A stretch of 64,000 nt of DNA from Luteitalea sp. TBR-22 (GTDB lineage: Bacteria; Acidobacteriota; Vicinamibacteria; Vicinamibacterales; Vicinamibacteraceae), in NCBI RefSeq assembly GCF_016865485.1, contig NZ_AP024452.1:2812501-2876500 (forward strand), written 5' to 3'. The notes beneath the pieces are model-generated. The model did no database searches. It was not told the origin of the DNA and saw nothing but the letters and a program-made list of their open reading frames with translations. This document shows, piece after piece, positions 10,811 to 26,626 of the stretch. Every line of letters starts with the position of its first letter. The stretch's first letter is position 1. The position numbers and the translations under genes are program-made.

Positions 10811-11677
10811 TCAGGCCGTCGGCTGGCGTTGCTTGCGCACGGCGTCGATCGCCCGCGATGCGATGGCGAACTGCTCCGGCGAGATGCCGTGCGAGATCGT
10901 CACGCCGTAGTGACGGTGGAGGTAGTCCTCGATGGAGATCCACGCGTCCCCGTCGTGCACGGTATGTGACCAGGCGCACATGGTGACGATCTGCTCGTGC
11001 TGGTGGAGGCGTCGGAGCAGTTCGCGGACGCCGGCCAGCAGCGTCAGGCCGAGCACCGCCAGCATCGTCCACAGCGTCAGCGACTGGGCGCGCAAGGCCC
11101 GGCGTAGCGCGTCCGACCTCGCGACCTGCAGGGTCGATTGATCGGCATCGACCCGCGCCACGGCCGCCCGCAGCCGGTCCATGACGCGCTTGCCCTCGCC
11201 ATCGGCGACGGCAGCGCGCGCCTCGGCGAACCGGCCCGCCCGGGCCAGGGCCAGTCGCGCCTCCATCAGCCGCATCCGGCTCTCCGCGAGGCGGCGCACC
11301 TCGGTGGCGTGGTCCCGCTCGTCGGCGCCGGCCACCGTCTCCAGCCTGGCGAGCAGTGCCGGGATGCGCGGGGCCGATGCGCCGTAGGCGTCGAGGAACT
11401 GCGGATTCTCGGTGACGAGGTAGCCTCGCGTGCCGGTCTCGGCATCGGTCACCGCCGACAGCACGTCGCGCGCGCTGCGCTGCAGGTCCGTCGATCTTGC
11501 CGACATCGCGATCGCCTCGACCACCCGGCGATGCGCCAGCAGTGCCGCCCAGGTCGCAGCGGCCGCGACGGCCACCGGAAGCCCGACGATCAGCGCGGTC
11601 AGGACGAGGGGAGAGACGCGACCGAGGAGCGAACGAAGACCAATCATGGGCACGCGGCCGCCGGGGAGCGCCGCCAT
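10811..11677 (-). CDS. Membrane CHASE3-domain sensor-like protein without output domain
   Basis: This 288-residue protein has a first membrane helix (about 22-45), a periplasmic CHASE3 domain with the hallmark DAETGTRGYLVT, and a second membrane helix (about 200-222). CHASE3 domains usually sit in front of kinases or cyclases; here none follows. The last 50 residues (MCAWSHTVHDGD to SHGISPEQ) resemble a small module common at the ends of bacterial signalling proteins with CxxC and SHGICPEC, but three of the four cysteines are replaced. ATG 11677 lies 5 nt after TAAAGT; ATG 11647 is an alternative. Confidence 0.72.
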   Translation of the reverse strand: MAALPGGRVPMIGLRSLLGRVSPLVLTALIVGLPVAVAAAATWAALLAHRRVVEAIAMSARSTDLQRSARDVLSAVTDAETGTRGYLVTENPQFLDAYGASAPRIPALLARLETVAGADERDHATEVRRLAESRMRLMEARLALARAGRFAEARAAVADGEGKRVMDRLRAAVARVDADQSTLQVARSDALRRALRAQSLTLWTMLAVLGLTLLAGVRELLRRLHQHEQIVTMCAWSHTVHDGDAWISIEDYLHRHYGVTISHGISPEQFAIASRAIDAVRKQRQPTA

Positions 11678-11745
11678 TGCTGACTTTACGCCTGTCAACA
11701 CCAGCGCGCCACAGCAATGCGATCGAGGTGTCGTTCGTCGGCGCG

Positions 11746-12552
11746 TCACTCCGACAGGTGCGCCAGCACGCCGCCGATCGAGCGTGCGTCGGGTGCGACG
11801 CGCTGCAGTGCGTACCCGGCGCCCGACAGGCACAACGCCACCACGAGCGCGGGCAGCCACGTGCGACGCATCACGCCGACGCTCCAGTGCTGCACGTCGT
11901 GCGGACGGAGTCGCCGGTACATGGTGGTGACCAGCGCCGCATCGAGCATGACTTCGGCGAGCAGCGCCGGCGCAATCCAGATCACGTAGCCGACGGCGAT
12001 GGCGCCCGCGCACACCAGCGCGCCAGCCACGACGAGCCAGGCGGCATCGTCGGCGTCGACGCTCAACCCGCCGAACCAGTCGCTGCCGGTGCCCCCCGTT
12101 GATGCGCGAGCGTGTGACGGGGCGACCACCCCGCGCGCGTCGCCGTCGCCCCACCGGGCGCCGCCCCCGCCGCCTCCGCTGCGTCCGCCCGCGAAGGACG
12201 ACGACCACGTGTCGCCATCGGCGCCGTCATGGATCACGCCATCGGCGCCGTCTCCGGCCCGCTCCCAGCGGTGCAGCGCGATCCAGACCTGCAGCAGGGC
12301 GAGGAACGCGAGGTAGCCACTCGCCACCGCCACGGCGTAGCGGAGCCACATCACGTCGACCCCGGCGTGCAGCAAGCCGACCGACGTCAGGAATCCGCCA
12401 AGCCCCGCGCCGACGACGATCAGCGAGAGCTGGAGACGGGGAAAGCGCCTCGAGACCGTCGTGGCCTCGAGGTCGCTGATGAGGGCCTCGCGCTCGCCGC
12501 GCGGCGTCAGGGCCGGCTTACCGCTTGGCGGGCGCGGTCGTCGGGAAGCCAC
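11746..12552 (-). CDS. Integral membrane protein with Gly-rich loop, function unknown
   Basis: About 268 residues with four to five hydrophobic helices (two N-terminal, two after the middle, one near the end). A polar middle of roughly 70 residues contains a run of six glycines (RSGGGGGGARWG), reminiscent of the Gly-rich tails of TPM-domain proteins. No standard start codon exists downstream of the peptidase stop, so the gene must begin inside that gene's 3' end. GTG 12552 is used; GTG 12585 is the alternative. I do not recognise a family. Overlap with the M3 peptidase suggests translational coupling. Confidence 0.5.
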   Translation of the reverse strand: MASRRPRPPSGKPALTPRGEREALISDLEATTVSRRFPRLQLSLIVVGAGLGGFLTSVGLLHAGVDVMWLRYAVAVASGYLAFLALLQVWIALHRWERAGDGADGVIHDGADGDTWSSSFAGGRSGGGGGGARWGDGDARGVVAPSHARASTGGTGSDWFGGLSVDADDAAWLVVAGALVCAGAIAVGYVIWIAPALLAEVMLDAALVTTMYRRLRPHDVQHWSVGVMRRTWLPALVVALCLSGAGYALQRVAPDARSIGGVLAHLSE

Positions 12553-15598: not shown

Positions 15599-16141
15599 GT
15601 GGCGCTCACCGCAACCGTCTACACGATCGACCTCGACATCACCGACCACGACCGCGGTGTGTACGACTCGCTGGCCCTGCGGGTGGCCCGCCATCCTTCG
15701 GAATCGGACGAGTACCTGGTGACGCGCGTCCTGGCGTACGCGCTCGAGTACGTCGAGGGCCTGGCGTTCTCGTCCGGCGGGCTGTCGTCGCCCGAGGAGC
15801 CGGCCCTGGCGGTCCGAGACCTCACCGGCGCCCTTCGCACCTGGATCGAGGTCGGCTGGCCCGACGCCGACCGCTTGCACAAGGCGGCCAAGGCCGCGGC
15901 GCGCGTCGTCGTGTACCCCCACAAGGATCCGGCGCAGTGGCTGCGCCGGCTCGCGGGGGCGGCGATTCATCGGGGGGCGGCGATCGAGGTGCGCAGCATC
16001 GACCTGGCGTTGATCGAGGCGCTGGTGGCGCGGCTCGACCGGCGTACGGCCTGGAGCGTCGCTGTGTCCGGGCAGGAGGTGTTCGTGTCGGTGGGGGAGG
16101 CGACGCTGTCGGGAGGGATGTCGGTGACCACCCTCCGATAG
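15599..16141 (+). CDS. yaeQ: YaeQ family protein
   Basis: This 180-residue protein matches YaeQ along its length: LTATVYTIDLDITDHDRGVY, RVARHPSESDEYLVTRVLAYAL, LSSPEEPALAVRDLTG and WIEVGWPDADRLHKA. YaeQ has a PD-(D/E)XK nuclease-like fold; in enterobacteria it has been linked to suppression of RfaH defects, but its activity is unknown. The GTG lies 6 nt after CCTAAT, similar to the leaderless starts elsewhere here. The long frame open upstream is a shadow of the preceding gene. Confidence 0.88.
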   Translation: MALTATVYTIDLDITDHDRGVYDSLALRVARHPSESDEYLVTRVLAYALEYVEGLAFSSGGLSSPEEPALAVRDLTGALRTWIEVGWPDADRLHKAAKAAARVVVYPHKDPAQWLRRLAGAAIHRGAAIEVRSIDLALIEALVARLDRRTAWSVAVSGQEVFVSVGEATLSGGMSVTTLR

Positions 16142-16209
16142 CTCGCGTCGGCCCTCACCGCGCCGCGCCTTGCCTTCTTCCCCGTAGTCGCGCAGCATTC
16201 GGGCTCCAC

Positions 16210-17067
16210 ATGCTTGCCAGCGTCGTTGCCCTCGCCACGCCGGTGATCACGCTGCTGCTGCTGGCCGCGGTCGGCCTCGATGTGCGCGTGGCCGACCTGG
16301 CGGCCATCCGGCAGCGGCCGCTTCTGGTGGTCTCCGGCCTCGCCCTGCCGGTGCTGGCGATGCCATTGCTCGCGTGGGGGCTGACGCGGCTGCTGAACCC
16401 GGGAGCGGCAGTGGCAGGGGGCCTGCTCCTGCTGTCGATCTGCCCGACCGGAGGGCTGTCGACCACCTACAGCCTGCTGGCGCGCGCCAACGCGGCGCTG
16501 GCCGTGACGCTCGCCGCCGTCGCCTGCGTCGCGGCCATCGTCTCGATCCCGCTGGCATCGGCGGGCCTCGAACTGCTGACCGGGGACGGTGGGCCCGTGC
16601 CGGCGCCAGTCGGCACGCTCGTGCGCCAGGTCCTGCTCGTGTTCGCGCCGCCCATCGTCCTCGGGATGGCCCTTCGCGCGCGGTGGCCGGTGGAGGCGGT
16701 GCGCCTGCTGCCGGTCGTGCAGCGCGCCGGGTTCGCCCTCCTCGCGGTGCTCATGGCGCTCGTGCTCGCCGACGCCGCGAGCCGTCCCGCCGTGCCGTGG
16801 CGGGCCGCCATCACGACGATGGCGGCGTTCGTGTCGCTGTCGTTCGTGATCGGTATCGCCTGCGCGCGCCTGCTCGCAGCACCGGCCGACGACAGGTTCG
16901 TGCTCGGGGCCGTGTTCGCGACACGCAATGTGGCTGCGGCGCTCGCCGTGGCGCTGGCGCTCGGGCGACAGGCGGAGTTCCTGTGGGTCGCCTTCGTCTA
17001 CCTGCTCGTCCAGATCCCCCTGCTCTCCGTCGCGGCGGCCGTCCGCGCCCGCCTCTCGTCGGCCTGA
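16210..17067 (+). CDS. Bile acid:sodium symporter (BASS) family transporter
   Basis: This 285-residue protein has nine to ten hydrophobic helices and no signal peptide. LLLLSICPTGGLSTTYSLLARANAALAVTL matches the first discontinuous BASS motif and LGAVFATRNVAAALAVAL the second, which together form the sodium and substrate sites. Bacterial members move bile-acid-like, pantoate or other organic anions; the substrate here is unknown. The gene ends 240 bp before the arylsulfatase, and the conserved promoter element lies in that gap. No convincing Shine-Dalgarno was seen. Confidence 0.85.
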   Translation: MLASVVALATPVITLLLLAAVGLDVRVADLAAIRQRPLLVVSGLALPVLAMPLLAWGLTRLLNPGAAVAGGLLLLSICPTGGLSTTYSLLARANAALAVTLAAVACVAAIVSIPLASAGLELLTGDGGPVPAPVGTLVRQVLLVFAPPIVLGMALRARWPVEAVRLLPVVQRAGFALLAVLMALVLADAASRPAVPWRAAITTMAAFVSLSFVIGIACARLLAAPADDRFVLGAVFATRNVAAALAVALALGRQAEFLWVAFVYLLVQIPLLSVAAAVRARLSSA

Positions 17068-17089: not shown

Positions 17090-17154
17090 TGCCCTTTGGG
17101 GCAACGGCGCTGCCCCTCGTTCGCCTTTGCAGGGCCTCGCCCGGGCGTGATGAT
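17090..17154 (+). promoter_or_regulatory. Conserved activator-type promoter, copy A (before arylsulfatase)
   Basis: The order is palindrome TGCCCTTTGGGGCA (17090-17103), 7 nt, TGCCCCTCGTTCG (17111-17123), 25 nt, GATGAT (17149-17154). TTTGCA (17126-17131) lies 17 nt before GATGAT as a weak -35. The two TGCCC half-sites in the same orientation start 21 bp apart, two helical turns. The same layout with identical spacings recurs at 25171-25235. Predicted start of transcription is about 17161, leaving a leader of about 147 nt to the arylsulfatase. Confidence 0.7.
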
Positions 17155-17307: not shown

Positions 17308-18858
17308 ATGCAGTCGACCAACAAGCTCACGGCCGTCGTCCTCGCGTGCGCCGGCGTGCTCGCCCTCGGGGCCGGTACGGCGGCGGCGCAGGCGGCCAGG
17401 AAGCCGAACATCCTGATCATCTGGGGCGACGACATCGGCCAGTTCAACATCAGCGCGAACAACCGCGGGATGATGGGGTACCGGACCCCGAACATCGACC
17501 GCATCGCCAACGAGGGCGCGACGTTCACCGACTGGTACGGGCAGCAGTCCTGCACGGCGGGCCGCGCCGCGTTCATCACGGGCCAGTCGCCGATCCGCAC
17601 GGGCCTGACCAAGGTCGGCCTGCCGGGTGCCCCCGAAGGCATGAAGAAGGAAGACCCGACCATCGCCACCCTGCTCAAGGCGCAGGGCTACATGACGGGC
17701 CAGTTCGGCAAGAACCACCTCGGCGACTCCAACGAGACGCTGCCGACCAACCACGGCTTCGACGAGTTCTTCGGCAACCTGTACCACCTCAACGCCGAGG
17801 AGGAGCCCGAGAATCCCGACTACCCGAAGGATCCTGCCTTCAAGAAGAAGTTCGGGCCGCGCGGCGTCATCCACAGCTTTGCCGACGGACGGATGACCGA
17901 CACCGGTCCGCTCACGAAGAAGCGCATGGAGACGATCGACGAGGAGGTCAACGCCAGGGCGATCGACTTCATGACCCGCGCCAAGGCCGCGGGCAAGCCG
18001 TTCTTCATGTGGTGGAACTCCACCCGCATGCACATCTTCACGCACCTCAAGCCCGGCTCGGTGGGCAAGACCGGCCTCGGCATCTACGCCGACGGGATGG
18101 TGGAGCACGACGGCCACGTCGGCATCCTGCTCGACAAGCTGAAGGAACTCGGCTTCGAGGACGACACCATCGTGATGTACTCGAGCGACAACGGCGCCGA
18201 GACCTTCACGTGGCCCGACGGCGGCACCACGATGTTCAAGGGCGAGAAGAACACGAACTGGGAGGGCGGCTACCGCGTGCCCACGTTCATCAGGTGGCCG
18301 GGCACGATCAAGCCGGGCACGATCGTCAACAACATCGGCGCCCACGAGGACATGCTCCCGACGCTGCTCGCCGCGGCCGGTGACACGACGTCGGTCAACA
18401 GCCTGCTGACCGGCATGAAGATCGGCGATCGCTCGTACAAGGTGCACATCGACGGCTACGACCTCGGCCCTGCCCTGCGCGGCCAGGCCGAGTGGCCGCG
18501 CAAGGAGTTCATCTACTGGACCGACGACGGCAGCGTGGCTGCGCTCCGCTACGAGGCCTGGAAGATCACCTTCCTCGCCCAGCAATCGCACGGCATGGAC
18601 GTGTGGCTGCAGCCCTTCACGCCGCTGCGCGCGCCGATCATCACCAACCTCCTGATGGATCCGTTCGAGCGCGCCAAGGACGAGCACGCGATCGGCTACC
18701 AGCGCTGGTACCTCGATCACATGTTCGCCATCGCGCCGGCCGGCGGCTACGTGGCCAGGTGGCTGCAGTCCTTCAAGGACTACCCGCCGCGCCAGAAGCC
18801 GGGCAGCTTCAACCTCGATCGCGTGATGGAATCGGTCATGGGCAGCAGCAAGCAGTAG
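17308..18858 (+). CDS. Exported arylsulfatase (sulfatase family, formylglycine type)
   Basis: This 516-residue protein has a signal peptide (about 1-29, AAAQA) followed by PNILIIWGDDIGQFN, the first metal-binding block with paired Asp. CTAGR (Cys82) is the C-x-[PA]-x-R site where Cys is converted to formylglycine. GQFGKNHLGD and MYSSDNGAE supply further active-site residues. It should hydrolyse sulfate esters in the periplasm; the converting enzyme is not in this window. GGAGGAG precedes the ATG. The upstream promoter element suggests activation by the sensor kinase/regulator pair 5 kb downstream. Confidence 0.93.
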   Translation: MQSTNKLTAVVLACAGVLALGAGTAAAQAARKPNILIIWGDDIGQFNISANNRGMMGYRTPNIDRIANEGATFTDWYGQQSCTAGRAAFITGQSPIRTGLTKVGLPGAPEGMKKEDPTIATLLKAQGYMTGQFGKNHLGDSNETLPTNHGFDEFFGNLYHLNAEEEPENPDYPKDPAFKKKFGPRGVIHSFADGRMTDTGPLTKKRMETIDEEVNARAIDFMTRAKAAGKPFFMWWNSTRMHIFTHLKPGSVGKTGLGIYADGMVEHDGHVGILLDKLKELGFEDDTIVMYSSDNGAETFTWPDGGTTMFKGEKNTNWEGGYRVPTFIRWPGTIKPGTIVNNIGAHEDMLPTLLAAAGDTTSVNSLLTGMKIGDRSYKVHIDGYDLGPALRGQAEWPRKEFIYWTDDGSVAALRYEAWKITFLAQQSHGMDVWLQPFTPLRAPIITNLLMDPFERAKDEHAIGYQRWYLDHMFAIAPAGGYVARWLQSFKDYPPRQKPGSFNLDRVMESVMGSSKQ

Positions 18859-19173
18859 CGCTGCACTCCCGTCGCAACGCGGGGCGGGAGCCCGGGCGTT
18901 GGCGTCGGGAGTGGCGAAGCGGGACGGGCCGTTGGCAGCGGTCGCGGCGGCCAGCCGCCGCGACCCTCCATGATGCTGGCGCGGCACCGCTGGCCGTCCT
19001 GGCCGGTCGACTCGCCCCCCGAGAGATGGCGTGTCGTCGACGCGCTGCAGGCCGAGATCTCCTTCAAGGGCCACTCTGCACGGTCGTCGCGCAGGACGAG
19101 ACCTGGGTCGACCCGCGGTGCTCCAGGGCCTTTCGCGCTGGACGCGGGGCGCACATCCGTGGATGCTGTGGGC
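18859..19173. other. Intergenic spacer of 315 bp
   Basis: Apart from a perfect hairpin near its middle I see no gene. Short frames exist but lack codon bias or a recognisable product. GATGCT (19162-19167) lies 6 nt before the next start codon. Confidence 0.5.
18940..18965 (+). terminator. Strong hairpin after arylsulfatase
   Basis: GGTCGCGGCGG (18940-18950) pairs perfectly with CCGCCGCGACC (18955-18965) around CCAG. It lies about 80 nt after the arylsulfatase stop. There is no T-tract, so termination is likely but not certain. Confidence 0.5.
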
Positions 19174-20205
19174 GTGCGCGGCCTGATCCGGTTCGTCTGC
19201 GGCGTCGTGGCGTGTCTGCTCGTCGTCGCCTCGAGGGCCGACGCGGGGCCGAAGCTGGATTACGTCGTCTTCGAGAACGGCGACGGCATCGTGTGCGAGA
19301 TCAAGGGCCTCTCGCGTGGCCGCCTGAGTGTCAACACCGACGCGTTCGACACGATCAAGGTCTACTGGAGCCGGGTCACGCGGATTGGCAGCGGACGACC
19401 ACTGCAGATCGAGATGGCGGGCGGGCAGCGGTACTTCGCCACCATCGTGGCGGTCGGCGAACGTCGTGCCGGGCTGATCCGGCCGGGCGCCGACCGGCTC
19501 GACGTCGCGCTCGGCGACATCGTCCGGATCACGCCGGTGGAGGCGGGAATCTGGCACCAGTTCGATGGTTCGATCGACCTCGGGTTCAGCTTCGCCAAGG
19601 CCAATCGTGAGACGCGCTACACGCTCAACGCGAGCAACACCTTCCGGAACACGCGGTACGAGAGCCGGATGTCGCTCAACGGCCAGACCACGCTGCGCGA
19701 CGACGCCGACCGGGTGCAGCGGCTGTCGGCGTCCCTCAACGGCAACCGGTTCATCGGGCCTCGCTGGTCGGCGCTGGCCCTGGGCCAGTACCAGGCCAAC
19801 GATGAACTCGACCTCGAAGGACGCACGGTGCTGGGCGGCGGCATCGGCCGGTACCTGGCCCAGTCCAACAGCACCATGCTGCAGGCCTACGGGGGCGTCG
19901 GCTGGACCCGCGAACGGTTCACCGGCCAGCCCGGCACGGACCGGCCCGAAGCCGTGCTCGGCGCGAACTTCGACTGGTTCAGCCCGCGCGACAAGAGCGT
20001 CGACCTCACGTCATCGGTGATCACCTACTACGCGCTGAACAGCGATCGACGCACGCGCCTCGAGACCCAGAGCGCGGTCCGCTTCGAGTTCTGGGGCGAT
20101 TTCTACGCGAGCGTGAACGGCTACACCAGCTACGACACGCACCCGCCTTCCGGACGCGAGAAGGTGGACGGCGGCATCAGCGTCTCGCTCGGCTGGTCGT
20201 ACTAG
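19174..20205 (+). CDS. Outer-membrane DUF481 (YdiY-like) beta-barrel protein
   Basis: This 343-residue protein has a signal peptide (about 1-24). A small SH3-like N-terminal domain contains ENGDGIVCEIKGLSRGRL, the NGD...GEI-type repeat often found before DUF481. The barrel follows from about residue 130 (IDLGFSFAKANRETRYTLN) and ends GGISVSLGWSY with the terminal aromatic of outer-membrane proteins. E. coli YdiY is salt-induced; the function is unknown. GTG 19174 is chosen to give a short signal peptide; in-frame upstream GTGs cannot be excluded. Confidence 0.8.
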   Translation: MRGLIRFVCGVVACLLVVASRADAGPKLDYVVFENGDGIVCEIKGLSRGRLSVNTDAFDTIKVYWSRVTRIGSGRPLQIEMAGGQRYFATIVAVGERRAGLIRPGADRLDVALGDIVRITPVEAGIWHQFDGSIDLGFSFAKANRETRYTLNASNTFRNTRYESRMSLNGQTTLRDDADRVQRLSASLNGNRFIGPRWSALALGQYQANDELDLEGRTVLGGGIGRYLAQSNSTMLQAYGGVGWTRERFTGQPGTDRPEAVLGANFDWFSPRDKSVDLTSSVITYYALNSDRRTRLETQSAVRFEFWGDFYASVNGYTSYDTHPPSGREKVDGGISVSLGWSY

Positions 20206-20239: not shown

Positions 20240-22618
20240 GTGACCGTCGTGCCCGATTCCGCCCGCCTGATGTCCCGCATCCGCGGCGCCTTCGTGGGCG
20301 CCGCCCTCGTCGCCGTGCTGACGGCCACCGGCTGTTCCTCCTCGCGTGAGCCGGCCAGCGTGGCCGGCGGCGGGACGGCCCCGGCGATGCTTGCCGCCTC
20401 GGCGACCTACGTCGGACGGGGCAGGTGCGTCACGTGTCACCAGGAGGAGAACGCCCGCTATCAGGGCTCGCACCATGATCTGGCGATGCAGGAGGCGACG
20501 CCGGCCACCGTGCTGGGCGACTTCTCGGATGCCACGTTCTCCTATGCCGGCACGGTCAGCCGGTTCACCACCCGCGACGGCAAGTACATCGTCACCACGG
20601 ACGGGCCCGACGGGCGGGTGCGCGACTTCGAGGTGGCCTACGTCTTCGGTGTCTATCCGCTGCAGCAGTACCTGATCGGCTTCCCCGACGGGCGATACCA
20701 GGCGCTCAGCATCGCCTGGGACGCGCGGCCGAAGGCACAGGGCGGGCAGCGCTGGTACCACCTGTACCCGGACGAGAAGGTGACGCACACCGACGTCCTT
20801 CACTGGACCAGGTTCAGTCAGAACTGGAACGCGCAGTGCGCGACGTGCCACTCGACCAACCTCCGCAAGGCGTACGACCGCGCCACCGACACGTACAAGA
20901 CGACGTGGTCGGAGCTCGACGTGTCGTGCGAGTCGTGTCACGGTCCGGCCTCGGCGCACGTAGCCTGGGCCGAGCGGCACGGCCCGGGCAAGGCCGATCC
21001 GTCGCTGTCGGCGACCGACCTGGGATTGACGGTGTCCCTGCGGGAGCGTCGCGGCGCGACGTGGACCATGCAGGGCACCAGGGGCATCGCGGCGCGGACG
21101 CCGGCGCCCGGTGCGACGCGCGCCGAGGTGGAGATCTGTGCGCCGTGCCACGCGCGCCGCGCCGAGCGCGTCGACGCCCACGTGCCGGGGCAGCCCCTCC
21201 TGATGTCCTATCGACCGACGTTCCTCTCCGCGGGGTTGTACCGGCCCGACGGGCAGATGGAGGACGAGGTCTACAACTACGGCTCGTTCCTCCAGAGCCG
21301 GATGCACGCCGCCGGCGTGACCTGCTCGGACTGCCACGATCCGCACAGCCTGAAGCAGAAGGGGGAGGGCAACGGGGTGTGCGCGCAGTGCCACCTGCCG
21401 ACGACCTTCGATGTCAGGAGCCATCACGGGCACGAGCCGGGCACGCCGGGCGCGTCGTGCGTGGCCTGCCACATGCCCACGGTCACCTACATGGGCGTCG
21501 ACGCGCGGCACGACCACAGCTTCCGCGTACCGCGCCCCGATTTCTCGGAGCGCTTCGGCACGCCCGACACCTGCACCTCGTGCCACAAGGGCAAGACGCC
21601 GGCCTGGGCGGCAGCGGCGCTCGACCGGTGGCGCACACCCGCCTGGCGGCAGCGCCCGCACTTCGCCCCCGCGTTCGCGGCGGCGGCGCAGGGCCGTGTC
21701 GATGCAGCCGGGCCGCTCAGGGCCATCGCGTCGGACGCCACCCAGCCGGCCATCACGAGAGCCACCGCGCTCGAGTGGCTCTCGGCCACCGCGCCCGAAC
21801 AGGCCGAGCAGGCCCTCGATGCCCTGGCCCGCGATCCACAGCCGCTCGTGCGGCTGTCGGTGGCACAGGGCCTGTCCCGCCTCGAGCCGGCGGCGCGGGC
21901 CCGCGTCGGCGGCGCCCTGCTCGAGGACCCGATGCGGGTCATCCGCCTCGATGCAGCCTCGGCGCTGGCCGGGGAGCCGGCACAGTGGCTGCCGGCCGGC
22001 CAGCGGGCGGCGCTCGAACGCGCGATGGCGGACCTGCGGACGTCGGAGGTCTTCAACGGCGATCGGCCGGAGTCGTACGTCAACCTGGCGCTCATGGAGG
22101 AGCGCCGCGGCAACGTGGCGGGTGCCATCGCCGAGTACGAGGCGGCCACCAGATACGCCCCCTGGTTCCTCCCGGCCTACGTCAACCTCGCGGAGCTGCA
22201 GCGGCAGGGCGGCGACGAGGTCAAGGCGGAGGCCACGCTTCGCCGGGCGCTGGTCGCCGTTCCCGGCGATCCCGGTGTCCTCTACGCCCTCGGCCTCTCG
22301 GTGTATCGCCAGCAGCGAGCCCTCGAGGCGGTCGACCTCCTGAAGCAGGCCGCGGCGCGCGGGCCGGAGGTGCCGCGGTATCCCTTCGCTTACGCGTTGG
22401 CCCTGGAATCCCAGCGCAAGTACGACGAGGCGCTCGCGGTGATCGACGCCGCCCTGGTGCGTCATCCCGACAACCGTGACCTGCTCGACGCGGGCCTGGG
22501 GATCGCCCAGAAGGCCTCCGACGTGAACCGCGCGCGCGGGTACGTGCGCCGGCTGCTGCTGGTCGTCCCCGGCGACCCTGCCTTGGTCCAGTTGGCAAGG
22601 ACCCTCGGGGTGCGGTGA
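20240..22618 (+). CDS. Octaheme c-type cytochrome with TPR C-terminus (lipoprotein)
   Basis: About 792 residues. A lipoprotein signal ends TATGC. The first 470 residues hold eight CxxCH haem sites (CVTCH, CATCH, CESCH, CAPCH, CSDCH, CAQCH, CVACH, CTSCH), in a cytochrome c554-like order with DCHDPHSLKQ. Then come a HEAT-like helical part and about four TPR units (ESYVNLALMEERRGNVAGAI and following). It is a periplasmic or outer-surface electron carrier with a scaffold for partners. GTG 20240 sits close to GATACT; ATG 20270 gives a more compact signal and is a real alternative. It directly precedes the sensor kinase. Confidence 0.85.
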   Translation: MTVVPDSARLMSRIRGAFVGAALVAVLTATGCSSSREPASVAGGGTAPAMLAASATYVGRGRCVTCHQEENARYQGSHHDLAMQEATPATVLGDFSDATFSYAGTVSRFTTRDGKYIVTTDGPDGRVRDFEVAYVFGVYPLQQYLIGFPDGRYQALSIAWDARPKAQGGQRWYHLYPDEKVTHTDVLHWTRFSQNWNAQCATCHSTNLRKAYDRATDTYKTTWSELDVSCESCHGPASAHVAWAERHGPGKADPSLSATDLGLTVSLRERRGATWTMQGTRGIAARTPAPGATRAEVEICAPCHARRAERVDAHVPGQPLLMSYRPTFLSAGLYRPDGQMEDEVYNYGSFLQSRMHAAGVTCSDCHDPHSLKQKGEGNGVCAQCHLPTTFDVRSHHGHEPGTPGASCVACHMPTVTYMGVDARHDHSFRVPRPDFSERFGTPDTCTSCHKGKTPAWAAAALDRWRTPAWRQRPHFAPAFAAAAQGRVDAAGPLRAIASDATQPAITRATALEWLSATAPEQAEQALDALARDPQPLVRLSVAQGLSRLEPAARARVGGALLEDPMRVIRLDAASALAGEPAQWLPAGQRAALERAMADLRTSEVFNGDRPESYVNLALMEERRGNVAGAIAEYEAATRYAPWFLPAYVNLAELQRQGGDEVKAEATLRRALVAVPGDPGVLYALGLSVYRQQRALEAVDLLKQAAARGPEVPRYPFAYALALESQRKYDEALAVIDAALVRHPDNRDLLDAGLGIAQKASDVNRARGYVRRLLLVVPGDPALVQLARTLGVR

Positions 22619-22665
22619 TCTGAGACAGCCCGGTGTGGCGCTCATGCCGCATCGGCTGCCTCGCG

Positions 22666-24546
22666 ATGTCACCCACGCGCCTCGCGCGCCTGTTCGGCCT
22701 GCTTGCCGTGTCCCTGTCGTGGATCGTCGCGGGGACCGCGCACGCCGAGGCGGCCAAGCGGGTCCTTGTCCTCTACTCCGTGGGCCGACTGCTGCCGGCG
22801 GTCCTCGAGTTCGATCGGGGCTTCCGTGCAGAACTCCCGCACCCGCCCGGGCAGGAGGTCGAGATCTACGAGGAGTTCCTCGACGCCGCGCGCTTCAACG
22901 GCGCCGAGTACGACGACGCGCTCGCCGATCACCTCATACGCAAGTATCGCCACCTCCGGCCCGATGTCGTCGTGGCGGCGGCGCGCGAGGCCCTCGCCTT
23001 CGTGCTCCGGAGGCGCGACCAGTTGCCGCCGGGCGTCGCCGTGGTGCACGCCGTGACCACCCGAGAGGATCTCGTGCGACTCGGCCCCCTGCCGCCAGGC
23101 GTCGTCGGCGTGCCGACCGAGGACGTGTTCGCCAGGACCGTGGCGCAGGCACTCCGCTGGCATCCGCAGGCGACGCGCGTGGTGGTCGTCGTCGGCCGGC
23201 GCGTGCTGCGCGACCGGATCTGGTACGAGCGCGTCCTGGCCGAGCAGGCTCGCCTGCCCCCCCGCGCGAAGGTCGAGGTGCTGGCCGACCTGCCGACCGC
23301 CGAGGTCGTCGCGCGCCTCGGCGCTCTTGGCGATGACGCCGTGGTGTTCACGCCCGGCTTCCAGCAGGATGGGGCCGGCGTGTTCATGACCCCCTTCGAG
23401 TCGGTGAAGGCGATGCGTGCGGCGACGCGCGCCCCCGTCTACGGCGCCTCCAGCACATTCCTCGAGGCGGGAATCACCGGAGGCTACTGGGCCGATTTCG
23501 AGTCGCAGGGACGCGAGGCGGGGCGTGCGGTCTCGCAGTTGCTGGCCGGTACGGCCGCCTCGGCCCTCCGAGTCCCCTCGACCGTGCCGGCAGTGATGCA
23601 CGCCAACTGGCGGGAGTTGCGTCGGTTCGGCATCCGCGACGGGGCGGTGCCGGCAGCAACGGTGGTGCACTTCCGTGAGCCGTCCCTGTGGGAGCGCGAC
23701 CGGAACCAGGTGTTGGGCGCGCTGGGCGTGATCGCCGTGCAGACGGTGCTCATCGCCGGCCTGCTGTGGGAGCGTCGCCGTCGTCGCGAGGCCGAGAGCA
23801 GCGTCGCGCAGTCGCGCCTGGAACTGGCGCACGCCTCGCGGCTGGCCGTGGCCGGCGAACTCGCCGCGGCGCTGGCCCACGAGATCAACCAGCCCCTCGG
23901 CGCCATCCTGAGCAACGCCGACACGGCGGAACTGATCCTGGAGTCGGGTGCAGGGAAGCCGGAACTGCTGCGGCAGATCCTGGCCGATATCCGACGCGAC
24001 GATGTACGGGCCAGCGAGGTGATCAAGCGCTTGCGAACCCTGCTGCGGAAGAACGAGGTCGAGCGCCTGCCGGTCGTGCTCGACGAGATCGTCGCCGACT
24101 GCGAATTGGTGCTGCGCTCGGAGGCGCGGCGGCGAGGTGCCGCCCTCACCGTCACCACGCCGGTCGAGCGCTCCACGGTGCTGGCCGACCGCATCCAGAT
24201 CCAGCAGGTGCTCATCAACCTCGTGCTCAACGCCTTCGACGCCACGGCCGACCTGCCGGAAGCACGCCGGACGGTGACGATCAGCGTGCAGCGGCACGCC
24301 GCCGACGTCAGCGTCTCGGTGCGCGACCTGGGGCCGGGCATCACGGCCGTCCCGGTGGACAAGGTCTTCGACTCGTTCTTCACCACGAAGCGGACCGGTA
24401 TGGGCCTGGGTCTTTCCATCGCCCGCAGCATCGTCGAGGCCCATCGCGGCCGTATCGGCGCGGCCAACGTCGACGGCGGCGGCGCGGTCTTCACGATGGT
24501 GCTGCCGTACGCGGTCGTCGATCCGGGTGTGGGGAGGGCGGCATGA
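22666..24546 (+). CDS. Sensor histidine kinase with periplasmic-binding-protein-like sensor domain
   Basis: This 626-residue protein has a signal/anchor helix (about 5-26), an ABC substrate-binding-like periplasmic domain (about 30-330, VLVLYSVGRLLPAVLEFDRG to GREAGRAVSQLLAG) and a membrane helix (about 347-366). The kinase part has H-box LAHEINQPLGAIL (His405), N-box INLVLNAFDA, VRDLGPGI and a G2 box GMGLGLSI. The sensor should bind a small solute in the periplasm. Its stop overlaps the regulator start (ATGA), so they form a two-component pair. ATG 22666 is preferred over the GTG at 22633 because it opens directly with a signal-like segment. Confidence 0.92.
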   Translation: MSPTRLARLFGLLAVSLSWIVAGTAHAEAAKRVLVLYSVGRLLPAVLEFDRGFRAELPHPPGQEVEIYEEFLDAARFNGAEYDDALADHLIRKYRHLRPDVVVAAAREALAFVLRRRDQLPPGVAVVHAVTTREDLVRLGPLPPGVVGVPTEDVFARTVAQALRWHPQATRVVVVVGRRVLRDRIWYERVLAEQARLPPRAKVEVLADLPTAEVVARLGALGDDAVVFTPGFQQDGAGVFMTPFESVKAMRAATRAPVYGASSTFLEAGITGGYWADFESQGREAGRAVSQLLAGTAASALRVPSTVPAVMHANWRELRRFGIRDGAVPAATVVHFREPSLWERDRNQVLGALGVIAVQTVLIAGLLWERRRRREAESSVAQSRLELAHASRLAVAGELAAALAHEINQPLGAILSNADTAELILESGAGKPELLRQILADIRRDDVRASEVIKRLRTLLRKNEVERLPVVLDEIVADCELVLRSEARRRGAALTVTTPVERSTVLADRIQIQQVLINLVLNAFDATADLPEARRTVTISVQRHAADVSVSVRDLGPGITAVPVDKVFDSFFTTKRTGMGLGLSIARSIVEAHRGRIGAANVDGGGAVFTMVLPYAVVDPGVGRAA

Positions 24547-25163
24547 GCGAGGTGGCCGTGATCCACGTGGTCGACGACGACGAGTCGCTGCGGATGGCGC
24601 TGGTGCGCCTCCTCGAGGCGCTGGGGCACGAGGCGCGCGGCTACGCGACGACCGGGGACTTCCTGTTGCACTTGCCGGAGGACCGCCACGGCTGCGTGCT
24701 GCTCGACGTGCAGTTGCCCGGCCCGTCCGGACTGGAGTTGCAGGCGGGGCTGCACGGCAAGGGCGTCGCCCTGCCGGTGATCGTGATGACCGGTCACCCG
24801 GACGTGGCGGCGAGCGTCGCGGCGATGAAGGCGGGGGCCGTCGACTTCCTGACCAAGCCGATCGACAGGGCCGCGTTGGTCGAGGCCGTCGGGCATGCCC
24901 TGAGACGGGACACGGAACGGCGCGCCGCTGCCGGCGCCGCCGCGGCGCTCAAGCGCCTGTTCGAAGGGCTCTCCCCAATCGAGCGGAACGTCTTCGACGG
25001 CATCGTGATGGGTCGCTTGAACAAGCAGATCGCCGACGACCTGCGCATCGCTGAACGAACCGTCAAGCTGCATCGAGCCCGACTGATGGAGAAGCTGGGT
25101 GTCGACTCGGCGGCGGCACTCGGGCGCCTGGCAGAGCGGCTGGCACAGGCGGGCGGCCAATGA
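24543..25163 (+). CDS. NarL/FixJ-type response regulator (REC + LuxR HTH)
   Basis: This 206-residue regulator has a receiver domain with acidic triad HVVDDDES, phospho-acceptor Asp55 (LLDVQLPGPSG) and LTKPID. A LuxR-type HTH follows (LSPIERNVFDGIVMGRLNKQ, IAERTVKLHRARLMEKL). Such regulators dimerise on phosphorylation and activate at palindromes. It overlaps the kinase gene by 4 nt. Just 8 nt after its stop begins a palindrome-based promoter that recurs before the arylsulfatase; that is the natural candidate target. Confidence 0.93.
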   Translation: MSEVAVIHVVDDDESLRMALVRLLEALGHEARGYATTGDFLLHLPEDRHGCVLLDVQLPGPSGLELQAGLHGKGVALPVIVMTGHPDVAASVAAMKAGAVDFLTKPIDRAALVEAVGHALRRDTERRAAAGAAAALKRLFEGLSPIERNVFDGIVMGRLNKQIADDLRIAERTVKLHRARLMEKLGVDSAAALGRLAERLAQAGGQ

Positions 25164-25170
25164 GGACGGT

Positions 25171-25235
25171 TGCCCCTTGGGGCAGGATCCTTGCCCCTCG
25201 TTCGGTTGGGCGCAGACGCGCCGACATCGGATCAT
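25171..25235 (+). promoter_or_regulatory. Conserved activator-type promoter, copy B (before lone receiver)
   Basis: Palindrome TGCCCCTTGGGGCA (25171-25184), 7 nt, TGCCCCTCGTTCG (25192-25204), 25 nt, GATCAT (25230-25235). Outside the spacers it matches copy A at 26 of 27 bases, and all spacings are identical. TTGGGC (25206-25211) is a weak -35. A start near 25242 gives a 55-nt leader to the receiver gene. Confidence 0.7.
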
Positions 25236-25296
25236 CGACTGTGCCGTTCCGTTCGAGTCGACCTTGCGTGCCCCGTGTGTCGGGAATGGTTACCCG

Positions 25297-25668
25297 ATGA
25301 CCGGCAGTCCGGTGGTCATCGTGGTGGACGACGACGACAGCCTGCGGGACGCGATGCGTCGACTGCTCGAGGCGGCCGGGTTCACGCCCATGGCGTATCC
25401 TTGTGGCGAGGCGCTCATCGCCGAGGGAGTGACTCCCGAGGCCGCGTGCGTCGTCACCGATCTGAAGCTGCCGGGCATGACCGGGCTCGACCTGCTCGCC
25501 CGCCTCAAGACGCTCCGGCCGGGGTTGCCCGTCGTGCTCATCACCGCGCACGACGACCCGGCGACCCGTGAGCACGCCCTGCAGCACGGCGCGTCGGCGT
25601 ACATCGCCAAGCCGTTTCGCGGTACCGCGCTGCTGCAGGTAATCACGTCGGTACTCGTTCGGGCCTAG
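25297..25668 (+). CDS. Single-domain response regulator (lone receiver)
   Basis: This 123-residue protein is a receiver domain only: VIVVDDDDSLRDAM, phospho-acceptor Asp55 (VVTDLKLPGMTG), switch Thr in LITAHDD and Lys in YIAKPF. It has no output domain. Behind its own copy of the conserved promoter and next to a kinase/regulator pair, it may act as a phosphate sink or feedback element, as lone receivers do elsewhere; that is inference. The sequence fits the FixJ/TodT receiver group, so it could have arisen from a second regulator that lost its HTH. Confidence 0.9.
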   Translation: MTGSPVVIVVDDDDSLRDAMRRLLEAAGFTPMAYPCGEALIAEGVTPEAACVVTDLKLPGMTGLDLLARLKTLRPGLPVVLITAHDDPATREHALQHGASAYIAKPFRGTALLQVITSVLVRA

Positions 25669-25741
25669 CCCGGTGGGCGCCGGCATCACCCGAGCGCGGC
25701 GGTGGACCGCGACGGTTTCATCCCCCATCCCTGGAGTCCTG

Positions 25742-26626
25742 ATGTCCTCAGTCCTGCTTCGCGTCCTGACCGCCTCGGCGTGCACGCTGGCGCTCGCGGC
25801 GCCTGCGTCCGCGCAAGCGCCCGACACGACCGACGTGCCCGCGCGGCTCTCGCTCACCCTCCCCGGCGTGCTGCCGGCACCCGAATCGGTCGCGGCGGCG
25901 CGAGAGGGCACGGCCTCGACAAAGCAGGTGAGCACGTCGTCATCGGGCGACTGGAAGTTCACCGTGTATCCGATCCTGGTGTGGGTGCCGATCAACGTGG
26001 GCCTGGAGGTCGACTTGCCCTTCGACGTCGGTGGCGGCAGCGGCGGCGGCGGTGGGGTCGGCAGCGGCAGTTCGGGGCGCGTCGATCTCGTGGACACGCG
26101 GTTCGACGGTGCGGCCCTGGTGGGCTTTGCGGCCACCAACGGCACGTGGCGGTTCGACTTCGACGGCGTCTACGCGGCCGTCGGTGGCGACATCGACCTG
26201 CCGTCCATCCAGCTCGACGCCACGCTCATCTACGGTCACGCAACCGTGAGCCGCAAGCTGTTCGGCGACCTCTTCGTGTCGGGTGGCGTGCGCCGCCTGG
26301 CCACCAAGTACGAGGCCCGCGTGCTCGACCGGTACGACTTCGAGAGCAAGCCGGGGATCTGGGATCCGCTGGTCGGCGTGGGGTACCACAAGGTGGGCGA
26401 CACCCTCGAACTGCACGCGATTGCCGAGTACGGTGGCTTCGGTGTCGGCGCCGACTCCGACTTCGGAGCGGCCGTACGGCTCGACTGGAAGCCCTGGTCG
26501 CACGTCGGCTTCACGGCCGGCTACAGCTTCTTCCAGTTCCGGTTCACCAAGGAGCTGGGACCGTTCGACTTCACGGCACGGCAGCACGTCGCCGGTCCGA
26601 CGCTCGGCCTCGGCCTCTACTTCTAG
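25742..26626 (+). CDS. Outer-membrane beta-barrel protein, function unknown
   Basis: This 294-residue protein has a signal peptide ending ASAQA. A low-complexity stretch (GGGSGGGGGVGSGSSG, about 99-114) interrupts the first strands, and the protein ends PTLGLGLYF with a terminal Phe as barrel proteins do. Alternating strands such as WRFDFDGVYAAV and VGFTAGYSFFQFRF support a small barrel. GGAG lies before the ATG. It follows the lone receiver by 73 nt and may share its promoter. No family can be named with confidence. Confidence 0.68.
   Translation: MSSVLLRVLTASACTLALAAPASAQAPDTTDVPARLSLTLPGVLPAPESVAAAREGTASTKQVSTSSSGDWKFTVYPILVWVPINVGLEVDLPFDVGGGSGGGGGVGSGSSGRVDLVDTRFDGAALVGFAATNGTWRFDFDGVYAAVGGDIDLPSIQLDATLIYGHATVSRKLFGDLFVSGGVRRLATKYEARVLDRYDFESKPGIWDPLVGVGYHKVGDTLELHAIAEYGGFGVGADSDFGAAVRLDWKPWSHVGFTAGYSFFQFRFTKELGPFDFTARQHVAGPTLGLGLYF

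Follow-up and report, generated by a model that had tools for sequence, protein, structure and literature searches.

We analysed a window of 64,000 nucleotides (2812501-2876500 of a genome of one contig) from Luteitalea sp. TBR-22, described in passages of PMC8852301 as an acidobacterium (Vicinamibacteria) from duckweed. The window carries a cluster of genes, all on the + strand, in which a two-component system lies next to an arylsulfatase and a multiheme cytochrome. A type I arylsulfatase with the catalytic Cys in an SCTAGR motif (17308..18858, PF00884 E 3e-51) is followed by a DUF481 outer-membrane-type barrel with an uncertain start codon (19162..20205, PF04338 E 5e-24) and an octaheme HEAT/TPR cytochrome, recognized by a count of 8 CXXCH motifs and family search (20240..22618). 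Next are a histidine kinase with HisKA and HATPase_c domains and a predicted periplasmic solute-binding-protein sensor, called from its fold (22633..24546), and a FixJ-like response regulator, a receiver joined to a LuxR/GerE helix-turn-helix by family search (24543..25163). A lone receiver, that is, a single-domain response regulator (25297..25668, PF00072 E 2e-25), and downstream of it an outer-membrane-type protein without a family hit (25742..26626) complete the set. A putative control site occurs twice on the + strand: site 1, TGCCCTTTGGGGCA-N7-TGCCCCTCGTTCG, 184 nt ahead of the sulfatase start (17090..17123), and site 2, TGCCCCTTGGGGCA-N7-TGCCCCTCGTTCG, in the gap between the regulator and the lone receiver (25171..25204). 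A first-pass annotation of the window had described five co-directional genes from the cytochrome onwards. All five open reading frames exist on the + strand, and its naming of an octaheme TPR cytochrome (8 CXXCH plus HEAT/TPR), a full regulator (FixJ-like receiver plus GerE) and a lone receiver (receiver domain alone) holds, but that block omitted the most conserved partner, the arylsulfatase, which lies outside it, as well as the control site.

Gaps of 34 nt and 14 nt precede the cytochrome and the kinase, the kinase and regulator genes overlap by 4 nt, and the sulfatase and DUF481 genes are 303 nt apart. The cytochrome may start at ATG 20270 and the kinase at ATG 22666; the cytochrome N terminus looks lipoprotein-like. 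ATG 25297, and not GTG 25099, is the most likely start of the lone receiver; this leaves a gap of 133 nt after the regulator, and control site 2 lies in it. The first-pass annotation had placed the lone receiver behind a promoter shared with the kinase. Given the site in this gap, we discarded the idea that one promoter serves all five genes: the arrangement looks like a regulator target of the receiver's own, as in a feedback loop, and not like part of a single transcript with the kinase. No sigma-70 promoter or terminator turned up in a consensus scan of the region.

The two gaps contain the same sequence. The pattern TTGGGGCA-N7-TGCCCCTCGTTCG has 2 matches in the window, no further match at up to 3 mismatches and 0 matches in 100 shuffles of the window. 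With a looser spacer, TTGGGGCA-N4-14-TGCCCCT, those two sites stand alone in the whole genome of 6,468,984 bp.

The sensor region of the kinase (residues 28-380) is predicted by AlphaFold2 (AF2) to form a two-lobed binding-protein fold, with a predicted local distance difference test (pLDDT) score of 90. Its match to ABC_sub_bind (PF04392) reaches 16.3 bits (E 0.0058), below the gathering score of 25.9. Searches with the model place the structures 3lft, 6hni, 3lkv and 6hnj on top (E 3e-12 to 7e-11). The first of these was solved with L-Trp, and 6hni/6hnj are CD0873, for which passages of PMC6816091 report a role in tyrosine import. The modelled sensor folds like an ABC_sub_bind solute-binding protein, which bears out the first-pass reading of a kinase with an ABC substrate-binding-like sensor. 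Four further proteins of the genome (432419, 111476, 5063122, 2152575) resemble the sensor region at 30-33% identity; judged by this similarity, the sensor type has multiplied in Luteitalea TBR-22.

The catalytic and regulatory parts are related to known two-component families without belonging to them. The kinase scores 169 bits with FixL (NF041777, cut-off 850), a match that covers the kinase core only, and 112 bits with the TtrS model (cut-off 750). The regulator scores 184 bits with FixJ (NF006900, equivalog cut-off 255) and 149 bits with TtrR (cut-off 290). As the scores fall below every cut-off, membership of the FixL, FixJ and TtrSR families was rejected. The lone receiver runs for 123 codons before its stop, matches no family above cut-off other than PF00072, and keeps the switch Asp, Thr and Lys. 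The lone receivers of 13 clusters, which end after 117-128 codons, group in one clade (support 0.973) separate from the receivers of 15 regulators, and most likely descend from a single lone receiver.

The sulfatase is 78-79% identical to those of clusters in the acidobacterial genome G193 and in a Burkholderiales genome. The usual type I sulfatase signature is C-x-P-x-R; the window enzyme, a PF00884 protein with Ala in place of Pro, conforms to C/S-x-P/A-x-R, and its SCTAGR motif is intact. Its best sequence match among solved structures is 7aj0. The catalytic Cys is kept in the examined sulfatases, mostly as SCTAGR, sometimes as SCTPGR, SCTSGR or SCTAAR, and as CSPTR in the Rhizobium binae and methanotroph clusters.

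Eight CXXCH motifs are present in 11 of the 13 aligned cytochrome homologues; in the R. binae protein (L221) the first is cut off by an annotated start placed downstream of it, and in G193 the last is CX4CH. His 240, 369, 395, 398 and 426 are invariant in this alignment, and His 79 and 188 nearly so, which would suffice for bis-His ligation of most hemes. The AF2 model has a confident HEAT/TPR tail, and its heme part, with pLDDT mostly below 50, is unusable. Among solved structures, OcwA is the closest match of the heme core (6i5b, E 3.1e-23), followed by 6qvm, MccA (4rkm, E 4.9e-9) and cytochrome c554; the 23 matches do not include octaheme tetrathionate reductase. The first-pass annotation had also counted two outer-membrane barrels. 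The DUF481 assignment of the protein before the cytochrome stands, but the one encoded at 25742-26626 matched no Pfam or NCBIfam model and is called a barrel by its look; homologues were found in two genomes (G040 and G049) and a remnant in a third (G001).

The order kinase-regulator-receiver-sulfatase recurs in genomes of two other acidobacterial families (G193 and G350), on a Holophagae contig (L140) and on pSymA of Sinorhizobium meliloti (L041). The proposed gene linkage of kinase, regulator and lone receiver is supported across phyla. Among the matches listed, the 19 full-length kinase relatives, some of them on short contigs, have a regulator nearby in 13 cases, a lone receiver in 7, a sulfatase match in 7 (weak in L155) and a cytochrome in 3; L143 and L153 each have a second receiver that was scored as a regulator but stops after 127 and 121 codons, respectively, and so is lone as well. 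In the same set of matches, a sulfatase lies near the kinase at 8 of 22 sensor-bearing loci versus 1 of 58 others (Fisher p 8e-5), counting sulfatases of at least 30% identity over at least 100 amino acids, which drops L155, L184 and L203, and with L168, L183 and L218, whose matches extend into the sensor, moved to the sensor-bearing group; the uncorrected counts are 7/19 versus 5/61.

At 4 of the 19 kinase loci among the matches listed, DUF3300 and DUF2950 genes stand in place of the sulfatase. Such genes adjoin kinases of this type in Bradyrhizobium and S. meliloti (L144, L146, L156, L157, L041) and are perhaps a second target set for the same kind of regulator. In the S. meliloti pSymA cluster, which has three control-type sites, the lone receiver appears by eye to be frameshifted (L041, ~11570-12000), and the kinase, regulator and sulfatase genes are open; a second cluster, including the cytochrome, is located on the same replicon (L259).

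A wider form of the control site, TGCCC(C/T)TT(C/G)GGGCA-N6-9-GCCCCT (TGCCCYTTSGGGCA-N6-9-GCCCCT), modelled on G193 and G350, was sought in six genomes; it occurs twice in TBR-22 and once each in G193, G350 and Thiocapsa, the last not used for the pattern, though its locus had been inspected beforehand. All five matches sit at the cluster, and the backwards control gave 0. The position of site 2, ahead of the lone receiver, is the same in G193 and G350, and at the Burkholderiales locus a variant of the site separates the cytochrome and receiver genes. When two mismatches were allowed across 396 Acidobacteriota genomes, three foreign genomes gave 1 match each versus 5 matches for the backwards control, which places the foreign matches at chance level. 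In Alphaproteobacteria, a related site, approximately CCY-N2-4-RG(G/T)NCAATA(G/T), occurs in 16 copies in 318,408 bp from 15 loci (backwards control 0), by a pattern drawn by eye from S. meliloti, refined on Rhizobium leguminosarum WSM1325 and counted on loci that had partly been seen already. All 16 copies lie in gaps adjoining kinase, regulator, receiver or sulfatase genes; 5 of the 15 loci lack the site (L154, L221, L226, L038 and L040), L038 and L040 having been taken in for the sulfatase alone. In WSM1325 and S. meliloti, the site precedes a sulfatase-HAD-cytochrome operon with the cytochrome as third gene. Shared control across the cluster is well supported by these sequence patterns, with the regulator as the presumed binding partner of the site.

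The full set of kinase, regulator, lone receiver, sulfatase, HAD hydrolase and cytochrome is present in WSM1325, S. meliloti ml28, Alloyangia (kinase 32% identical across sensor and core), Mesorhizobium, Rhizobiales R129_A and a Burkholderiales metagenome-assembled genome; in the window and G193 the same set occurs, but no HAD gene was detected. By sequence, the kinase, FixJ-like regulator, lone receiver, sulfatase, usually with a HAD hydrolase, and octaheme-TPR cytochrome recur jointly in Acidobacteriota, Alphaproteobacteria and Betaproteobacteria. An arylsulfatase lies within ~9 kb of the cytochrome at 10 of 12 plasmid loci drawn from cytochrome searches, which are partly non-independent (two Rhizobium, two Sinorhizobium); without WSM1325, picked with its sulfatase hit already known, the count is 9/11. 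The loci of Alteromonas 76-1 and Qingshengfaniella show no arylsulfatase within 8 kb and were not extended as was that of Alloyangia, which was inspected further upstream after a HAD gene appeared at its edge. As these clusters and plasmid loci show the same link in other bacteria, we rejected a chance association of the cytochrome specific to Luteitalea. The WSM1325 cluster adds a second sulfatase, an FGE gene and, after the cytochrome, a DUF481-family gene that has no tblastn similarity to the DUF481 protein of the window. Of the first-pass proposal that the cytochrome and barrels belong to an envelope process under the same control as the kinase, the cytochrome part is supported by its recurrence in the same clusters; for the barrels we have this one Rhizobium cluster, dissimilar in sequence.

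Several neighbouring genes were noted at these loci. Two DUF3604-like genes and one peptidyl-prolyl-isomerase-like gene, as we presume them to be, follow the G193 cytochrome (L097, 14578-19296); the lipoprotein-like gene ahead of it, which has no Pfam hit, is also found close to another cytochrome (L250). In Alloyangia, a MoxR/DUF58/VWA block separates the HAD gene from the cytochrome (L257, 1483-7848); such operons often include a TPR protein. A Rokuibacteriota contig carries a kinase-sensor match and a cytochrome (48%) together, with no sulfatase match (L218, 7083-9296).

Resemblances to characterized systems are partial. The regulator aligns near full length with FixJ and the kinase core scores best with FixL, but both fall below the equivalog cut-offs, the target genes are other ones, and the sensor is of the solute-binding-protein type where FixL has a heme-PAS domain. 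TtrS/TtrR likewise pair a periplasmic binding-protein-like sensor kinase with a FixJ-like regulator beside an envelope redox enzyme; the window pair differs in its scores and targets. The sulfatase shares PF00884 and the catalytic Cys with type I (formylglycine) arylsulfatases, and formylglycine-dependent ester cleavage is its predicted chemistry. The cytochrome is alike in heme-core sequence to OcwA, MccA and cytochrome c554, but has eight CXXCH motifs, a long HEAT/TPR tail and a genetic tie to sulfatases in many genomes; passages of PMC6703420 report slow nitrite reduction by OcwA and its resemblance to NrfA and MccA. In Rhodobacter sphaeroides, according to passages of PMC9430884, the single-domain receiver Osp is expressed under CtrA and inhibits the kinase CckA. 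The window resembles this loop in having a single-domain receiver under the system's own, here putative, regulator, which would act back on the kinase; it differs in that the receiver adjoins a simple kinase-regulator pair, and inhibition is suggested by analogy.

We consider it probable that the cluster constitutes a single regulated envelope module made up of the solute-binding kinase, FixJ-like regulator, sulfatase, cytochrome and outer-membrane set, with the lone receiver as a damper. The predicted sensor would bind a periplasmic solute, and the kinase would pass phosphate to the FixJ-like regulator, as their families and gene pairing suggest. The regulator may activate two promoters bearing the same palindrome plus half-site. 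From the first, the arylsulfatase would be expressed and, as the genes are co-directional, also the DUF481 barrel, the octaheme-TPR cytochrome and the two genes for kinase and regulator, on a putative shared transcript; the second would drive the lone receiver and the second outer-membrane-type protein. Behind a regulator-target promoter, the lone receiver would be produced in the on state of the system, where it most likely acts to damp the kinase, a role for which Osp is the precedent. The conserved linkage suggests that a periplasmic sulfate-ester hydrolase may cooperate with a multi-electron cytochrome, whose TPR part would serve for docking. A far more specific version makes the cytochrome a dedicated sulfatase partner: its TPR arm would hold the exported sulfatase and its hemes would oxidize the SCTAGR Cys to formylglycine without oxygen, or accept electrons from the released aromatic product, giving a ligand-switched, often plasmid-borne sulfatase-redox machine with an off-switch. 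We regard this as very improbable. The genome has five PF03781 (FGE-fold) genes, all outside the cluster, so that sulfatase maturation need not depend on the cytochrome.

Several observations weigh against a single module. The wider-form site was absent from the cluster-bearing Holophagae and Burkholderiales genomes in whole-genome searches, and L154, L221 and L226 lack the alphaproteobacterial type. Among the matches listed, 8 of 9 Bradyrhizobium loci with such a kinase show no sulfatase match. In the window itself, the 303-nt gap between sulfatase and DUF481 genes could contain a separate promoter. The cytochrome is also commoner than the module in Acidobacteriota. At a threshold of E 1e-100, 30 of 396 genomes have the cytochrome and 24 the sulfatase; 8 have both (G000, G060, G090, G143, G170, G193, G203, G311), more than the ~1.8 expected (p 1e-4, a value that ignores relatedness, genome size and contig breaks). 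Among 38 acidobacterial cytochrome loci (the window, L092-L094, L097, L127-L139, L231-L250), a sulfatase match is present in 8, namely the window, G193, G090 (at 9 kb), G370, G397 and, weakly, L136, L138 and L247; the other 30, several on short contigs, have none, and a universal cytochrome-sulfatase linkage was rejected on this ground. The sensor kinase adjoins the cytochrome only in the window and G193. The frequency of the cytochrome (30/396) and the 30/38 loci without a sulfatase match mean that it could be an old resident of TBR-22. Neighbourhoods in which the cytochrome is not linked to the kinase, which the first-pass annotation had named as refuting its proposal, were in part observed within the order: at 16 other same-order cytochrome loci (L092-L094, L127-L139), three from Luteitalea relatives, 14 lack a sulfatase match and all 16 lack the sensor kinase.

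These observations bear most directly on the possibility that a kinase-regulator-receiver-sulfatase regulon came to surround an unrelated octaheme cytochrome that was inherited vertically and is a bystander in TBR-22. The three Luteitalea relatives G001, G004 and G002 have the cytochrome at 76%, 72% and 66% identity, and the cluster's kinase, regulator, lone receiver and sulfatase are not alongside it; an unrelated receiver at the start of the G001 stretch is 11.6 kb away. Genome-wide, a sulfatase at E 1e-100 is missing from G001 and G004, as is a close kinase; the top kinase match in G001 is 34% identical over its full length and located elsewhere. In a DNA comparison, both miss ~16.1-20.4 kb and 22.6-26.4/26.7 kb of the window, which flank the retained cytochrome and each contain one control site. 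G001 retains a scrap of the last gene (71% identical), which suggests that the second block was lost in this genome. The lack of sulfatase matches at most same-order loci fits the bystander as well. Against it, the same cytochrome family occurs in the same kind of cluster in G193, Alphaproteobacteria and Betaproteobacteria, most plasmid cytochrome loci have sulfatase neighbours, and in WSM1325 and S. meliloti the cytochrome is third in an operon behind the control site. We therefore find a bystander unlikely. Mostly inside the first missing block, directly upstream of control site 1, lies a gene of the sodium/bile-acid symporter family (15937-17067, PF01758), whose product might transport a solute of the same pathway as the cluster.

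The damper role of the lone receiver has its own competitor, in which the receiver is an output and neither a phosphate sink nor a kinase inhibitor: its phosphorylated form would control a protein partner or relay phosphate elsewhere. The single-domain receiver MrrA reportedly serves as an integrating hub, and another is said to activate exopolysaccharide synthesis; in the window, G193 and G350, the receiver stands ahead of effector genes. In most clusters, however, it adjoins its kinase and regulator with the same kind of site, which is the arrangement of the Osp loop, and we hold the output role to be possible but doubtful. As a further alternative, the system could be a TtrSR-like respiratory switch, with a sensor that reads an electron acceptor, the cytochrome as terminal reductase and the sulfatase as another step of the pathway. 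The sub-threshold TtrS and TtrR scores and the kinship of the heme core to OcwA, MccA and cytochrome c554 are in its favour, but both scores are far under their cut-offs, octaheme tetrathionate reductase is absent from the 23 solved-structure matches of the heme core, and the clusters of L140, L141 and L153 include sulfatase and HAD genes with no cytochrome within the stretch. Such a switch seems quite unlikely, and we retain the single envelope module as our reading.

Literature searches by title and start of abstract, for combinations of the parts, returned no description of such a cluster, and other papers and full texts may differ; the passages of PMC6703420, PMC5936775, PMC8528874 and PMC12285233 do not show it. 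Judged by similarity, all parts except the last gene (25742-26626) come from known families. What is likely new is an envelope module under two-component control that is linked to a sulfatase and a multiheme cytochrome and probably has its own feedback. The analysis also connects sulfatases with a widespread octaheme-TPR cytochrome family that has no assigned function, a link that we did not find described in the literature searched. The inference from gene order becomes a candidate regulon with a defined control site. Since the cluster is present in the easily manipulated S. meliloti and R. leguminosarum, the kinase ligand, the sulfatase substrate and the role of the cytochrome are directly approachable. 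If the feedback circuit is true, the regulator makes the damper of its own kinase.

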